A stretch of DNA of 64,000 nt. Origin: a virus. The stretch is taken from positions 1 through 64,000 of IMG/VR virus record IMGVR_UViG_3300006112_000008; one strand, 5' to 3'. Below the pieces are notes generated by a model. The model worked only from the letters and a program-made list of their open reading frames with translations, was not told the DNA's origin and ran no database searches. The translations under genes and the position numbers were made by a program. Below, piece by piece: positions 6,937-58,134 of the stretch (positions within the stretch are counted from its first letter, which is position 1; each line of letters starts with the position of its first letter).

Positions 6937-7980
6937 ATGATACTGCATCCAGCAGATAATTTAAAAATAGGTTCATCTCAGGTAACTTCGGCTTATCTGG
7001 GAAGCAATTTAGTTTGGAACTATATAGATGTACAGCTAACCAAAGATTGGTTGAACAGAATAAGCACTATTGGTGGAGTAGCTCCCAGCACAACAGTATA
7101 CAATGCATCTATATATTTATTAAACAGCTTGAGGCAGACAGGTGTACTTTCAAAAATTTTAAGAATGAACCTGTTTTGCGGAGGAGACTGGAAAGCCTCT
7201 CTTGTTCCGCTAATAGCCACAGCAGGTATAGGTTATGACTATAATGGTAGATATGCTCCGAACTCAGGCACACAAGGCCCTTTTGGTGCTGGAGATTGGT
7301 CATTAACCACAGGATTTAATGCATCCTCTAACGCCAACTATCAATCTGCCGGAACCATCGCAGGAAACACCAATTCGAATACACTGAAAATAATAGACAC
7401 AACTGTACCTCAAAATTACTCAGCTTTAACAAATTATTCAGTGCACTTCTCATGCTATATAAGTGGAGGTTCGCCAGGAGGTAATATAACCATAAATACT
7501 GACTTAGGTGTGAATGGTTCAGGAGGACAGAACTTTACATTTCAGCCAGCCTATAGTGGAAACGCAGGACAGGTTTCCAGGTTTAACTGCTATAGCCAGG
7601 ATGCGAACAGTACCGCAGGAGGTACATTAGCTTCTCCTATGTCTAATCCTTTGGGGTTTTTTGTGGGTTCTCGTGTTAGCAGTAGTTACTCCACAATATA
7701 TAGAAGTGGACTATCCAGTAACTTACCTATGAAATCGGGATCTGGAGTTAACCCTAACACCCAAACCGCCACAGCCCCTAATCTAGATACCTCTACGTTT
7801 ATGGTGTTTGGCAGAGGCACGGCAGGAACATACGGAGCTGCGAATAAGCAGATAAGCAACATAACAGATAGAACAATGTACATGTATTCTATAGGCACAG
7901 GATTGACTGATGCGGATGTTTTAAATTTTAATAACGCCATAGCTTTTTTTAATACCATGATAGGTAGAACGAATTATTAA
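6937..7980 (+). CDS. Putative tail fibre-associated/receptor-binding protein
   Basis: A 347-residue protein rich in Gly, Ser, Asn and Thr. The N-terminus (MILHPADNLKIGSS, then AYLGSNLVWN) resembles short virion-attachment segments of phage tail proteins. The C-terminal part, with GSRVSSSYSTIYRSG, MVFGRG and YSIGTGLTDADVLNFNNAI, resembles LamG/concanavalin-like repeats of phage appendages. It begins 4 bases after the collagen fibre and probably forms an adsorption-apparatus partner. Function is inferred from context and composition only. Confidence 0.6.
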   Translation: MILHPADNLKIGSSQVTSAYLGSNLVWNYIDVQLTKDWLNRISTIGGVAPSTTVYNASIYLLNSLRQTGVLSKILRMNLFCGGDWKASLVPLIATAGIGYDYNGRYAPNSGTQGPFGAGDWSLTTGFNASSNANYQSAGTIAGNTNSNTLKIIDTTVPQNYSALTNYSVHFSCYISGGSPGGNITINTDLGVNGSGGQNFTFQPAYSGNAGQVSRFNCYSQDANSTAGGTLASPMSNPLGFFVGSRVSSSYSTIYRSGLSSNLPMKSGSGVNPNTQTATAPNLDTSTFMVFGRGTAGTYGAANKQISNITDRTMYMYSIGTGLTDADVLNFNNAIAFFNTMIGRTNY

Positions 7981-8052
7981 TTTTGCAATTGACTCTGAAC
8001 TGTGTAATGTTTCTAATGATTCTTACAAATCAAAGAAAACAATACAAACAAC

Positions 8053-9162
8053 ATGAGCACACTTGCATTAGCAGTAATATTAAAAAATGAAGAGCACGTA
8101 ATTGAGAAGTGCATAGATCCTTTTATTCCCTACATAGATTATTGGGTTTTAGCAGACAACGGATCTACAGATAAGAGTGAAGAATTGGCTACTAAAAAGT
8201 TAGAAGGTATTCCTGGCGAATATCTTCACCATAAATGGCATGATTTTTCTACCAATAGAAATATGTGCATAGAAGCGGCAGAAAAGAAGGCCAAGTACAT
8301 AGTTATGATGGACGCTGATGATGAGTTTGTTATTGAGGATAAAAATTGGAAAAGCCAGTTAGATTCAGATAAAGATTTTTACTGGGTAGAAATTCATCTA
8401 GGAGGCATAAAATATTTCAGACCACACATTATTAAAAATACCGCCAAAATGAGGTACTTTGGTGTGCTCCATGAATATCTCGAATGGGGAGGCAAAGACG
8501 GAGGAACATTAAGTGGAGTACATATCGCGGCAGGTGTTGGAGGTTCTAGAAGTGCGGATCCTGATAAATATTTAAAAGATGCTGAAATTCTTTTAAAGGA
8601 AGTAAAAAAAGATCCCAAAGACACCAGGAGTATGTTCTATTTAGCTCAAAGCTATAGAGACGCAGGAAAACCGGAAGAAGCACTAAAGTGGTATATGACC
8701 AGAGGAGATATGGGAGGATGGTCAGAAGAAGCATGTGTTTCTTTTTACGAGGCGGGAAAACTAATGGAGCAGCTTGGTCACCCCGAGCCAAATATTGTTT
8801 TAACTTATTTAAAAGCCCATTATGTAGACCCTAGAAGAGCGGAGCCCTTATTATTTCTTGCTGATTATTTCACAAGATTGGGAAAGCATGAGATGGCTTA
8901 CGCATATGCACATGAAGGTACACATAGAAAATCATCAGAAGGATTAACTTTATTTACTGACGCTTTTGCGTATAATTATAAAGCACTGATTTATAAGAGT
9001 GTTGCTGGATTTTATACTAATTCTTTTGCGGGAGGATATTCCGCCTGTAAAGAAGCATTAGCTATATGCCCAGAGCAAGATAAACCAATGCATACAACCA
9101 ATTTAAAATTTTACGAAGATCTTCTCAAAGGTCAGCGCGCAGCCAAAGAGAGTCTTAGTTAA
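8053..9162 (+). CDS. Glycosyltransferase family 2 with C-terminal TPR-like repeats
   Basis: A 369-residue protein. The N-terminal GT-A fold shows LAVILKNEEHVIEKC, DNGSTD at residues 35-40 and a DADD metal/nucleotide-sugar motif at 87-90, as in family 2 glycosyltransferases. Residues of about 190-350 look like helical repeats (SMFYLAQSYRDAGKPEEALK), as in TPR-fused family members. The donor sugar and acceptor are unknown. Sitting next to the tail fibres it could glycosylate a fibre or host surface glycan. The start follows an A/C-rich leader (ACAATACAAACAACATG) instead of a Shine-Dalgarno site. Confidence 0.85.
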   Translation: MSTLALAVILKNEEHVIEKCIDPFIPYIDYWVLADNGSTDKSEELATKKLEGIPGEYLHHKWHDFSTNRNMCIEAAEKKAKYIVMMDADDEFVIEDKNWKSQLDSDKDFYWVEIHLGGIKYFRPHIIKNTAKMRYFGVLHEYLEWGGKDGGTLSGVHIAAGVGGSRSADPDKYLKDAEILLKEVKKDPKDTRSMFYLAQSYRDAGKPEEALKWYMTRGDMGGWSEEACVSFYEAGKLMEQLGHPEPNIVLTYLKAHYVDPRRAEPLLFLADYFTRLGKHEMAYAYAHEGTHRKSSEGLTLFTDAFAYNYKALIYKSVAGFYTNSFAGGYSACKEALAICPEQDKPMHTTNLKFYEDLLKGQRAAKESLS

Positions 9163-45275: not shown

Positions 45276-46979
45276 ATGTCCCATTACGATGTTAAAGAAA
45301 CTATAGAAAAACTGCTCAAGGCAGGAACCAAGGAGTCAGTTTTTCGTGCTCGACAGCTAATGTTTTCGGTACTTCCTCCCTCTCATTTTGTCGAGAACTA
45401 CTTGTTTGATAATGAGGGCAGGCTTCAAGATTTAAATGATTTCCCGATGCTTAAGCATATTTATGACAATATGCCGCAGAAATTGCTCCTTAAGTGCAGT
45501 CGTAAAACTTTGAAGAGTACACTTTTGAGTAATTTCGTTTGTTTAAACATGTTGAGATGGAATTACTACAAGCTACTATATATTGGTCCGCAGGAGTTAA
45601 CTGTTAAATATTTTTCTAGTAATTACCTTCCACCTAGATTTGATAGCCCTAAGGTTAAGAATATGTTGGTGAAAGGCTGGGATAAGAATGATGTGTTTGA
45701 AAAGATTTTAGGGGACACTAGAAGTAGTATCTTGTTTCGTTATGTTAAAGATGATGCAACGCGAGTTCGTGGTCCCGCCGTGGATTGTATTGTTTATGAT
45801 GAGGTGCAGGACATACATTATGACCAGATACCTATTATCCAGGAAACAATGGCATTGAGTCCTTACAAACGAGAGATATTCGCAGGTACGCCGTTAGACT
45901 CCTCGAATACTATTCATAGTTTGTGGAAAACAACAAACCAACTGGAGTGGATGATGCGTTGTGGGTGTGGGCATTGGAATAGCCTTACAGAAGGCAATGA
46001 CCCTATGAAAATGATTTTACCTCATGGATTGAGTTGTTCAAAATGCTCTAAAAAATTAGATGCTAGGCAAGGAGAATGGGCTGCGGGTAATCCCAAGAAT
46101 TTTTTAATGACGGGATATCATCTTGCGCAGCCAATCTTACCATTCTTCAACGAGAGCGAAAAAGAGTGGAAAGAAATTTATGAAAAATGCACTAGCGGAA
46201 AATATGATCAGAAAAAGATAATGAATGAGGTACTGGGCTTGAGCTTTGATATAGGTACAAAGCCAATTACTGAAGAAGAACTTAGAAAGAATTGTGTACT
46301 TGGTAATATGATTGAGCCTGGCAGCGATAAGCATGCCGTATTCTTGAAGAATAGGGGAAGGTATAAAATATTTACTGTGGGTGTGGATTGGGGTGTTTCT
46401 ATGGTGCAGAGCAGAACAGTATGCACTGTTGGAGCATTGAGAAACGATGGGATATTTGAAGTATTTTTTGTTAAGATTTTTTCTGGTTTTGATCATGAAG
46501 CACACATAAAGAGCATATCCGAGATAGCAAATGGCTATAATGCCTATTGTGTGTCTGACTCTGGACCTGATCCTATCAGAGGAATAAAACTCTGCGAAAT
46601 GACCAGCCCAACAAGATCACAGTTAGCTGCATATAGACGCAGTAAAGTGATTCAGTACTTTGACATGGGTGACTATGACTGGCGACAAAACAGATGGATA
46701 CTGCACAGGTCTGATGTTATATCTCTGGTGATCCGTCAAATAAAAGAAGGCAAGATCCTGTTTCCTAACTGGGAAGATGTGTCTGACTATATGCAGGATC
46801 TTTTAAACGTATATGTTGAAGTAAAAGACGGCCTGTATGGCCAGGAGATGTTCTATAACCATAATCCCAACCAGCCCGACGACGCCATGCACAGCCTTGT
46901 ATTCGCCGCTTGCGCCGCCTACATGGCCGCTGGAGATATTGTTCTCCAGGGCGCAAGTAGCAGTGCTAGGGAGATTTAA
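45276..46979 (+). CDS. Terminase large subunit (TerL)
   Basis: A 567-residue packaging motor. ATPase: SRKTLKST (75-82, Walker A-like) and CIVYDEVQ (171-178, Walker B plus catalytic Glu). A zinc-like Cys set, CGCG (229-232) and CSKC (254-257), sits between the domains, as in some phage terminases. The RNase H-like nuclease shows GVDWG (Asp371), CVSDSG (Asp428) and PDDAMHS (Asp535/536). It cuts concatemers and translocates DNA into the prohead. It is transcribed rightward between two leftward operons and overlaps the next gene by 4 bases tail to tail. Confidence 0.9.
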   Translation: MSHYDVKETIEKLLKAGTKESVFRARQLMFSVLPPSHFVENYLFDNEGRLQDLNDFPMLKHIYDNMPQKLLLKCSRKTLKSTLLSNFVCLNMLRWNYYKLLYIGPQELTVKYFSSNYLPPRFDSPKVKNMLVKGWDKNDVFEKILGDTRSSILFRYVKDDATRVRGPAVDCIVYDEVQDIHYDQIPIIQETMALSPYKREIFAGTPLDSSNTIHSLWKTTNQLEWMMRCGCGHWNSLTEGNDPMKMILPHGLSCSKCSKKLDARQGEWAAGNPKNFLMTGYHLAQPILPFFNESEKEWKEIYEKCTSGKYDQKKIMNEVLGLSFDIGTKPITEEELRKNCVLGNMIEPGSDKHAVFLKNRGRYKIFTVGVDWGVSMVQSRTVCTVGALRNDGIFEVFFVKIFSGFDHEAHIKSISEIANGYNAYCVSDSGPDPIRGIKLCEMTSPTRSQLAAYRRSKVIQYFDMGDYDWRQNRWILHRSDVISLVIRQIKEGKILFPNWEDVSDYMQDLLNVYVEVKDGLYGQEMFYNHNPNQPDDAMHSLVFAACAAYMAAGDIVLQGASSSAREI

Positions 46980-49707: not shown

Positions 49708-49753
49708 AATAAAAAACCTCCCTTGGTGCGCATCGTTGAGAGGCGTGGGAGGT
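49708..49753 (-). terminator. Rho-independent terminator
   Basis: Read leftward: ACCTCCC (49753-49747) pairs with GGGAGGT (49722-49716), followed by six T. It lies just after the gene ending at 49777. Confidence 0.75.
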
Positions 49754-56253: not shown

Positions 56254-56688
56254 TGGTGGAGGCGACGGGATTCGAACCCGTGTGTTCCAGAAATATCTAA
56301 CAACCGTTTACATGCTTAGCTCAGCCTATTTCATCTGTACCAGTACGCTGAGCGGATACAGATGGATCTTCAACTTAACGCGAATTGAGTCGTATCTAAA
56401 TTATACCCTCACAAGATAATTGAGGTACCCTTTTGTATCTCTCCGGCATCGGGCGTCCAGAGAGCGTTTTACTACTAGCGGCTTCAAGCCGCTGCGGTTA
56501 GGCAGCGAGAAGCTCGCTGTCAGCGTAGCCATACTTTGCAAGAATGGCATCCGCCTCAGCGAGGCTAGGAGCAAGCATCTCGTTAGAGTTTGCTTTTATT
56601 TTTTTCCCAGATGATTATAGAGGCCAACTGAGATCCTCTGCATGTAGGCTGATATCAACTCCTGGAGTCGATTTCCAATTACGCCCCC
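56254..56688 (-). ncRNA. ssrA: tmRNA (ssrA)
   Basis: The 5' end (56688) GGGGGCG pairs with CGCCTCC at the 3' end, followed by A and encoded CCA (56254). A T-arm with ACGGGTTCGAATCCCGT precedes the 3' acceptor strand. Inside is a coding frame starting GCA (56593) that ends GAGCTTCTCGCTGCCTAA (56498), reading ANSN... and ending ...SELLAA. The Leu-Leu-Ala-Ala end is the classic degradation signal for ClpXP-type proteases. A tmRNA rescues stalled ribosomes and tags their products. Confidence 0.9.
56498..56593 (-). other. tmRNA tag peptide frame (31 aa)
   Basis: Thirty-one codons plus TAA within the tmRNA. The tag begins ANSNEMLAPS and ends ADSELLAA. It is about three times longer than the 10-residue E. 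coli tag. The start codon GCA (Ala) is supported by the A-rich run just before it. Confidence 0.8.
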
Positions 56689-56711: not shown

Positions 56712-57485
56712 TTACTTTATCAGTGTAAAGCAAAAGCTGCCCTCTGGAACAAGATGGTTTTCATCTCTTCCCGGACTGTAATATATATGTGGTTTTGAGG
56801 GGAGTAGAACTTTTCCGAATTTCTTACCAAGCTGTAAGATAGTTTCCATAATGCCGATAGCATAAGGATGAACTTCATCAGATTTGGTATTACTGCTGTA
56901 TCTGTTCCACAGCATGTCATCATCAAAATAAAGTAAATCTGAATATTTTGATGCTCTGCCTATCTCTAGGGTTTCTTCTCTGATATCCCTCAATCCACGT
57001 CCAAGCAGGAATGTAAAAATAATATTACCCAAGGGCTTTATCATTTTTTTATCCTCTAGCATGTGTGAGATATACTCTATTATATTTCTGTTAAAGGTAC
57101 CCATGAAATCACCGTAGATTATATCAAATTCAGCTGTTGAGCTATCAAACAAGCTGGAATTAAATTTCCTGGTGACTACATCTTCCCATGATGTTTTTTG
57201 GTCTAGTAGATCAATCTGGTTTCTTTTATTCTTGTGATTGAGCTTTAGAAAATTTCTTGAAGATTCATTCACATAAGGATCAGATTCAACACCAACAATA
57301 TTGAACTTATTTTCAGGGAAATTTTGAATTAACTGCCGCTCCCATAGCCATTTTTCACCAGGCAGAGAGAGTATGTTGATATCTTCTCTATAACGCAACA
57401 GCTTCTTTAGCTCTTTGTTTAGGTAGATGTCGTTGTCTCGTTTTTCTTTACGTGCTGACCAATCTATCCTGCGTACGTTTTTCAC
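56712..57485 (-). CDS. Putative class I methyltransferase-like protein (257 aa)
   Basis: INILSLPGEKWLWE (about residues 36-50) and IVGVESDP resemble motifs I and II of a Rossmann methyltransferase, and FDIIYGDFMGTFN could be the substrate/IV region. An Asn-Pro-Pro-Tyr catalytic motif is absent, so DNA amine methylation is not shown. It starts at GTG 57485 with the leader CCAACCAAAACCAAAAA. It lies between tmRNA and candidate RNA B. Confidence 0.5.
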   Translation of the reverse strand: MKNVRRIDWSARKEKRDNDIYLNKELKKLLRYREDINILSLPGEKWLWERQLIQNFPENKFNIVGVESDPYVNESSRNFLKLNHKNKRNQIDLLDQKTSWEDVVTRKFNSSLFDSSTAEFDIIYGDFMGTFNRNIIEYISHMLEDKKMIKPLGNIIFTFLLGRGLRDIREETLEIGRASKYSDLLYFDDDMLWNRYSSNTKSDEVHPYAIGIMETILQLGKKFGKVLLPSKPHIYYSPGRDENHLVPEGSFCFTLIK

Positions 57486-57504
57486 TTTTTGGTTTTGGTT
57501 GGTT

Positions 57505-58095
57505 GTTTGGTTTCAGGGGTTAAAAAATAACTCTGTGTGATCATCACCGTGATCTGTAAAAATAACACCCAGCATTAGGTTGTTTATCTTTACAGAGCGT
57601 GTTATGGGAATTACCCATACTCTACTCACAGAATTATTTTAAAAGGTTTAGGCGCGTTCCTACCACGATGTCTGCAAACCTCGTGGTGAGGCGAATGATT
57701 TGTTCACGGTGGTTGCAGTATCCGTGAGATTGTCATTTAGTGTGGGGGTTGTGCCACACCAGTTTCCACCAATAAGTTGGAAACCCTTTCAATAAACTCG
57801 TCAGTTTATTCCTTGCTGCGCCATTTTTTGCTCTCTGCTTTTCAGGCGGCCATGATTCCACCTCTTCCCGACTTGAGACGGTTTACGACTCTGGTTATAG
57901 TCCAGACTAATCGCAAGTAGCATTACAAAAATAGATGGATCTGTGTGCCCGTTTGCTATGTGTCTCTATGCGGTGCTCGGCCGAGCAGAGCGCCATTGTA
58001 CACACAATATCAGCCGTGGACCTTTAGCTAATTAGCGGACACACAGATCCGAATCTATAAACTAAAAAATATAGCCTAACAAATCTTGTTATCAA
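57505..58095 (-). ncRNA. Candidate large structured RNA B (~600 nt) with kissing loops
   Basis: No coding frame. Stable pairings: AATAAxTCTGTG with CACAGAxTTATT near 57525-57640; ACCACGA (57662-57668) with TCGTGGT (57681-57687); TCACGG (57704-57709) with CCGTGA (57722-57727); GTGTGG/CCACAC; GTTTCCA/TGGAAAC; AATAAAC/GTTTATT; and an 11-bp stem GGATCTGTGTG (57937-57947) with CACACAGATCC (58040-58050) around TGCTCGGCCGAGCA. Loops CTGCAAACC (57672-57680) and GGTTGCAG (57711-57718) are complementary, so they may kiss. Such architecture and tRNA/tmRNA neighbourhood recall ROOL/GOLLD RNAs. Confidence 0.65.
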
Positions 58096-58098
58096 TTT

Positions 58099-58104
58099 AT
58101 TATA
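58099..58104 (-). promoter_or_regulatory. Leftward TATAAT upstream of RNA B
   Basis: Read leftward: CAGGTATAATAAATTG, 50 bases before the first long stem of RNA B. This would be its promoter. The -35 is not clear. Confidence 0.4.
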
Positions 58105-58134
58105 CCTGAAAAGTTAAGCTATATTATGGGGGGG

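Follow-up and report, generated by a model that had tools for sequence, protein, structure and literature searches.

Which kind of RNA, if any, is encoded by the coding-free stretch at positions 57486–58120 of this phage genome, and does it belong with the large ornate RNAs, of which GOLLD, ROOL and OLE make up the working class? To our knowledge, the purpose of GOLLD-type RNAs, as well as that of the small self-cleaving ribozymes of bacteria and phages, is largely unknown. A giant structured RNA with kissing loops, possibly of the GOLLD or ROOL kind, had been proposed at this place in the window (the whole stretch of DNA analysed, 64,000 nucleotides). We examined its strand and fold, its homologues in related phages, the ribozymes found at one of its junctions and its relation to GOLLD.

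Strand, extent and fold of the RNA

The longest open reading frame in the stretch, both strands counted, encodes 47 amino acids, and the alignment of relatives across the RNA displays numerous insertions and deletions of varying lengths, which argues for a non-coding sequence. The coding-free stretch of about 590 bases noted earlier is therefore borne out. The minus strand of the 635 nt folds at -205 kcal/mol, as compared to -153 kcal/mol (sd 6) for shuffled sequences (z -8.8, none of 20 shuffles being as good), with a z of only -3.7 for the plus strand. A separate fold computation on 57505–58062 gave z values of -6.9 (minus) and -3.5 (plus). The 5′ hairpin alone (z -4.8) and the 3′ part alone (z -6.2) also exceeded their shuffles, so that the original prediction of a structured RNA holds well past chance. 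Because the minus strand folds far beyond the plus strand, we consider the RNA to be real and minus-stranded, a correction to the earlier reading. The genes directly flanking the stretch are on the minus strand as well. The features of the locus are as follows.

58098..58106, minus strand: promoter -10 box GGTATAATA, kept in all six homologues, with a predicted start near 58092
about 58092 to 57520, minus strand: large structured RNA of about 570 nt, from the fold and the homologues
57931..58058, minus strand: long 5′ hairpin H1 (ATAGAT..GGATCTGTGTG / CACACAGATCC..ATCTAT), z -4.8
57974..57987, no strand assigned: 14-nt palindrome TGCTCGGCCGAGCA at the tip of H1, which could pair two molecules
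57825..57931, minus strand: divergent twister-type ribozyme candidate, from a sub-threshold Twister-P1 match and the support of 23 sequences
57651..57822, minus strand: central domain of several hairpins closed by GGCGC/GCGCC, from the six-homologue alignment, recurring in sister phage G016
57704..57727, minus strand: kissing hairpin 1, loop CUGCAA at 57713–57718 kept in 6/6, stem with a compensatory change from C-G to U-A
57662..57687, minus strand: kissing hairpin 2, loop UUGCAG at 57672–57677 kept in 6/6, stem with compensatory changes
57523..57641, minus strand: 3′ domain GUGAGUAGAG..GGUGAUGAUCACAC ending in a U-run, 17 of 36 pairs changed on both sides among six sequences
56712–57485, minus strand: ORF of 257 amino acids without known family, between the RNA and the tmRNA gene
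56254–56688, minus strand: tmRNA gene (98.9 bits), downstream of the RNA

Scanning the stretch with Rfam revealed no family at its curated score, and weak matches (U2, mir-971 and similar, E 0.5 or worse) were rejected. The outer helix of the minimum free energy structure (TTTCAGG/CCTGAAA) was discarded since it takes in promoter bases. No -35 consensus precedes the GGTATAATA box, and a consensus promoter scan picks another site, TTGATA-16-TATATT at 58095–58068.

The nearby tmRNA gene that had been anticipated is present, separated from the RNA by a single ORF. Homologues of its 257-aa product, with 57–59% identity, occupy the same place in three related phages (G012, G014 and G035); used as a search bait, this protein returned only a near-identical contig. 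The predicted tmRNA tag peptide of the window phage is unusually long (ANSNEMLAPSLAEADAILAKYGYADSELLAA). Elsewhere in the window, an abiF RNA match (RF03085) lies at 49716–49752 on the minus strand, with 50 bits, above cut-off, and the ORFs adjacent to it have no Pfam family.

Two details of the 5′ leader stood up to inspection: the 11-bp outer hairpin, formed by GGATCTGTGTG and CACACAGATCC on the minus strand at 58040–58050 and 57937–57947, and the 14-base palindrome at 57974–57987. H1 is found in the window phage and three of its relatives (G012, G035 and G038) and is absent from G014 and G015. The tips differ in sequence and carry palindromes of 12, 8 and 6 nt in the relatives, against 14 nt in the window phage; the combined shuffle P is 2e-4, the 6-mer by itself being no better than chance, and part of this signal can arise from stem selection alone. 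As judged from the sequence, a palindromic tip would favour intermolecular pairing.

Homologous RNAs and conserved domains

Using the terminase (45276–46979) as bait, 29 related phage contigs were collected, one of them near-identical to the window phage. A DNA search of the other terminase-related records identified homologues of the whole RNA in five (G012, G014, G015, G035 and G038), which are environmental contigs. A tmRNA gene of the same strand lies downstream of each of the five RNAs, immediately adjoining it in G015 and G038; the tmRNA matches of G012 and G035 are below cut-off. The GGTATAATA box, the central domain and the 3′ domain are kept in the six-way alignment, which represents about four independent lineages. 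Comparative folding, suggested along with the original prediction, revealed a conserved structure with compensatory changes among the homologues. The E-values of the models are rough. More distant relatives possess a tmRNA gene, and the flanks read contain no RNA of this kind; no annotated phage matched at the DNA level when the window RNA, the G012 RNA or the GOLLD stretch of G016 served as query. In two related phages (L155 and L156), a group I intron match of 68.7 bits lies 17 nt past the tmRNA gene, at 1931–2140 on the plus strand.

Compensatory change affects 7 of 25 central-domain pairs in the six sequences. Adding the G016 sequence raises this to 13 of 19 pairs, a figure that leans towards the model because the G016 alignment was fitted to it. 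A search with the central-domain model over other twister-bearing, tmRNA and pistol loci found nothing. An eight-base complementarity between two loops had been described earlier; the loops are indeed complementary, but through six contiguous pairs (CUGCAA/UUGCAG), with two more past a bulge. The hexamers exceed chance, since all six homologues retain them on stems that themselves change. Since they are invariant among the six, they are evidence of conservation and not of covariation. Such kissing loops could act within one molecule or between molecules.

The 3′ domain is present as a second copy inside the same RNA in three relatives, and distant matches to it were detected in other phages. 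Similar structures occur in unrelated phages (L213 1194–1274, minus strand; L214 1379–1502, plus strand; L235 2552–2637, plus strand). In the first two they come directly after an ORF and are followed by a U-run, as if the 3′ domain were a widespread 3′-end element of phage RNAs. Pattern matches in L176, L178, L179, L181 and L182 proved to be unrelated sequence.

The ribozymes between leader and body

A feature overlooked by the original prediction lies between H1 and the central domain. When Rfam was searched in E-value mode, a type-P1 twister (RF03160) was matched at 57929–57827 on the minus strand with 29.6 bits (E 3.8e-4). This falls short of the Rfam gathering score of 67.2, for which reason we label the element a divergent twister candidate. 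A scan of viral contigs with core pieces brought up nine other phage contigs that contain the motif UAAUGCUACY ... AACCGUCUCAAGUCGG ... GCAGAGAG, and six of these also scored as sub-threshold twister matches, at 29 to 45 bits with a best E of 8e-7. A broader pattern yielded 23 usable sequences, all viral copies. From these, an excerpted core alignment (A1) was made, in which the variable loops are cut out and the columns are consequently ungapped.

The 23 sequences support helices P1, P2 and P4 as well as the pseudoknots T1 and T2. Core pairing reached 85.1% of cells, as compared to 69.7% in shuffles and 30–46% with the partners slid. P4 is 100% paired, and both P4 and P1 contain many changes on both sides. 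The T2 pair is A-U in 16 sequences, G-C in six and G-U in one, and is unpaired in none. T1 is CUC/GAG, with a U-G pair in two sequences, and differs on both sides from the CCC/GGG of the Rfam consensus. The U-A step and the invariant core beside P2 and in L4 (UAA, GUCUCAAG and GCAGAG) are found in the window and in 23/23 sequences, an invariance that is partly due to selection because the scan patterns preset some of the letters. U-A is the cleavage step described for twister (PMC6154101). The window element is thus a candidate for a divergent double-pseudoknot twister fold, whose cleavage is predicted to fall between U57925 and A57924.

The same twister variant is present in other phages (L003, L004, L006, L007, L008, L012, L014, L015 and L036). 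In several cases it appears to lie within a short, independent RNA gene, which is preceded by promoter-like sequence and followed by a terminator-like hairpin. A tmRNA gene scored above cut-off in seven of the twelve twister-variant records searched, the window phage included. L053 carries, on its reverse strand at 7822–8250, a tandem pair of twister-like motifs around a short ORF, with a long hairpin before each. Six matches to the twister pattern in bacterial genomes (L016–L021) all miss the 3′ half of the motif and were judged to be chance.

At the place of the window twister, all five homologous RNAs carry a pistol ribozyme (RF02679) with a consensus core (L174 alignment), scoring 59.7–61.5 bits for a cut-off of 34.5. 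It sits at the junction where the 5′ leader, including H1 in those RNAs that have it, meets the GGCGCA of the central domain. Conversely, a search of the window phage genome for pistol gave none, and no twister sequence appears in the alignment of the five relatives. A first look at the genomes with RF03160 had failed to pick up even the twister of the window itself, and the negatives that it gave for the relatives were therefore set aside; that they lack twister is concluded from the alignment and from the pistol match. Next to the tmRNA of G034 and G027, pistol scored weakly (18–20 bits), and these matches are unconfirmed.

By sequence comparison, then, this homologous RNA appears to carry one of two unrelated ribozyme classes at a single site. 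Because twister occupies in one phage the place held by pistol in five, cutting at the junction would be conserved and not the ribozyme class, which suggests that evolution preserves the act of cutting. It has been reported that several ribozyme classes share similar genomic locations and proposed that cleavage is needed, the class being unimportant (PMC10085705); here that pattern is seen within a single homologous RNA. The predicted cut sites are at opposite ends, pistol cutting at its own 3′ end and twister at its own 5′ end. Twister would therefore stay on the body, whose end would differ by about 100 nt, and the only outcome predicted for both classes is the separation of leader and body.

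Relation to GOLLD and proposed maturation

Membership in GOLLD or ROOL was not supported by the searches: the window RNA has no GOLLD or ROOL match even at E 10, its five homologues have neither at E 5, no other known large RNA matches the window RNA, and the ROOL covariance model matched nothing in the rest of the genome either. The only GOLLD match in the same genome, of 15.8 bits (G000:177443), is weak, overlaps ORFs and was rejected. What stood of the earlier reading is a large, conserved, structured phage RNA next to a tmRNA gene, with conserved complementary loops. The GOLLD hunch was nonetheless close. In sister phage G016, whose terminase is 85% identical and whose upstream genes are in the same order with 43–63% identity, the same locus consists of about 2.1 kb (L217 3913–6089) containing only two antisense ORFs of 84–86 aa. 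This stretch unites, in order, the central domain (27.2 bits, E 1.9e-4 with the six-sequence model; closing helix UUGUUGCGC/GCGCAACA), a GOLLD match of 141.2 bits (just below the cut-off of 150, E 1.7e-37) and, 10 nt past it, a pistol ribozyme of 47.4 bits. Of the kissing loops CGCA/UGCG is left, with four pairs only. The pistol is located 3′ of GOLLD and not 5′ of the central domain, and the latter is outside the Rfam GOLLD match; a search of three GOLLD loci (L251, L253 and L254) did not recover it. By its synteny with G016, the window RNA shares the locus and a neighbouring domain of a GOLLD transcript, which by itself does not define GOLLD. Past the pistol, L217 continues with about 1 kb more of strongly folding sequence.

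The association of pistol with GOLLD extends beyond this group. A pistol pattern scan gave 26 further records, and GOLLD was detected in four of them (three closely alike), against none of 14 other records save for one partial 19-bit match. The pistol is directly 5′ of GOLLD, within one coding-poor stretch, in the three similar records (G040, G057 and G063), and 1.5 kb upstream of it in the fourth (G055). Another record, L235, has a pistol followed by a 3′-domain match (E 1.6e-4). Comparison of the window RNA with its relatives shows a conserved RNA with a conserved structure, a position upstream of tmRNA, an exchange of ribozymes and a domain and locus shared with a GOLLD transcript.

Our preferred explanation, which we hold to be probable, is that this is a large phage RNA of the GOLLD locus from which autocatalytic cleavage removes the 5′ leader, leaving the conserved body. 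RNA polymerase would start near 58092 and transcribe the minus strand, producing in turn a leader with the long hairpin H1, a self-cleaving ribozyme and a body made of the central kissing-loop domain and the 3′ domain. During or after transcription the ribozyme would fold and cut the RNA, detaching the H1 leader and leaving the body with a defined 5′-hydroxyl end. The body would most likely act as a stable, GOLLD-like structural RNA that loop-loop contacts hold together and possibly join to other copies. We infer transcription, cleavage, a purpose in 5′-end maturation and self-association from the features described above; a maturation step fits because the body is kept in 6/6 whereas the leader is the most variable part. 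Counting against this explanation are the sub-gathering score of the twister, the opposite predicted cut ends of the two classes, the pistol of G016 being 3′ of GOLLD, the invariance of the hexamers among the six together with their reduction to four pairs in G016, and the small number of lineages.

The ribozyme could instead be a passenger, mobile among phage genomes, that landed or was swapped in an RNA that does not need cleavage. The same twister variant does occur in unrelated short RNAs of other phages, and an enrichment in the vicinity of phage genes is general to both twister and pistol (PMC10085705, PMC4604425). However, two classes at the same junction of one RNA, one or the other kept in every one of the six homologues, are not what a passenger would leave, since loss in some relatives would be expected, and independent phages likewise have a pistol beside GOLLD; we think this explanation unlikely. 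The RNA could also serve operon processing, separating or protecting adjacent transcripts, for instance the precursor of the tmRNA or the message encoding the 257-aa protein. It is always upstream of tmRNA in this group, adjoining it in two phages, and its 3′ domain, which terminates in a U-run, is seen again behind ORFs of other phages. Yet the ribozyme is internal, about 300 nt ahead of the 3′ end, and so would not split the RNA from the tmRNA; furthermore, the body is far too elaborate for processing needs and the tmRNA of distant relatives lacks such an RNA in the flanks read, which makes this role very improbable.

Multimeric cages, assembled by way of kissing loops and further contacts, have been described for the phage RNAs GOLLD and ROOL (PMC12286853), and the window RNA might be a true nanocage of this type, a reduced GOLLD devoid of the conserved 3′ region and multimerising via the kissing loops and the H1 tip. 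The locus and central domain in common with the G016 GOLLD transcript point in this direction, as do loops kept in 6/6 and tips that change in sequence while staying palindromic. What bears on a homo-multimeric assembly comprises just these complementary loops and palindromic tips. The failure of GOLLD searches at permissive E-values, the central domain lying outside the Rfam match in G016 and missing from three GOLLD loci, and the lack of H1 in two relatives all speak against it, and we regard it as doubtful. Returning to the maturation of a GOLLD-locus RNA, a bolder version, which we advance tentatively and with rather less assurance, is that a family of large phage RNAs overlapping GOLLD depends for its maturation on a built-in, exchangeable ribozyme, either pistol or twister.

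If true, these phage ribozymes would have a clear function, namely to define the 5′ end of self-associating RNA particles or to trigger their assembly. Small self-cleaving ribozymes and GOLLD-type RNAs meet here at one locus, and pistol in five phages with twister in the sixth, at the same junction, amounts to a natural class-swap experiment indicating selection for cleavage. The long-open question of the role of a ribozyme in a large RNA thereby becomes directly testable. No paper in the open literature searched contains both “GOLLD” and “pistol ribozyme”, and the portions of that literature available to the search hold no description of ribozymes in GOLLD- or ROOL-type RNAs. Nor was any paper found there on a ribozyme-carrying large phage RNA with an exchanged ribozyme class.

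As compared to known systems, the window element has the P1, P2 and P4 helices, both pseudoknots, the U-A step and the conserved core of type-P1 twister (RF03160), and differs from it by its CUC/GAG T1, its enlarged loops, its sub-gathering score and its embedding in a large RNA. The pistol ribozyme occupies the same junction in five homologous RNAs, whereas the window phage has none and the pistol fold is unrelated to twister. ROOL is likewise a large phage RNA, located close to tRNA islands and equipped with kissing loops (PMC12286853), but its model does not match the window RNA. GOLLD (RF02032) is a large coding-free phage RNA with loop-loop contacts located near tRNA or tmRNA genes. Unlike GOLLD, the window RNA and its five homologues are without the conserved GOLLD 3′ region, and the window RNA is shorter (about 570 nt) and has an internal ribozyme candidate. 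Like GOLLD, it is a large, coding-free phage RNA with complementary loops close to a tmRNA gene; it has its locus and one domain in common with the GOLLD transcript of G016, and in other phages pistol is found beside GOLLD itself.
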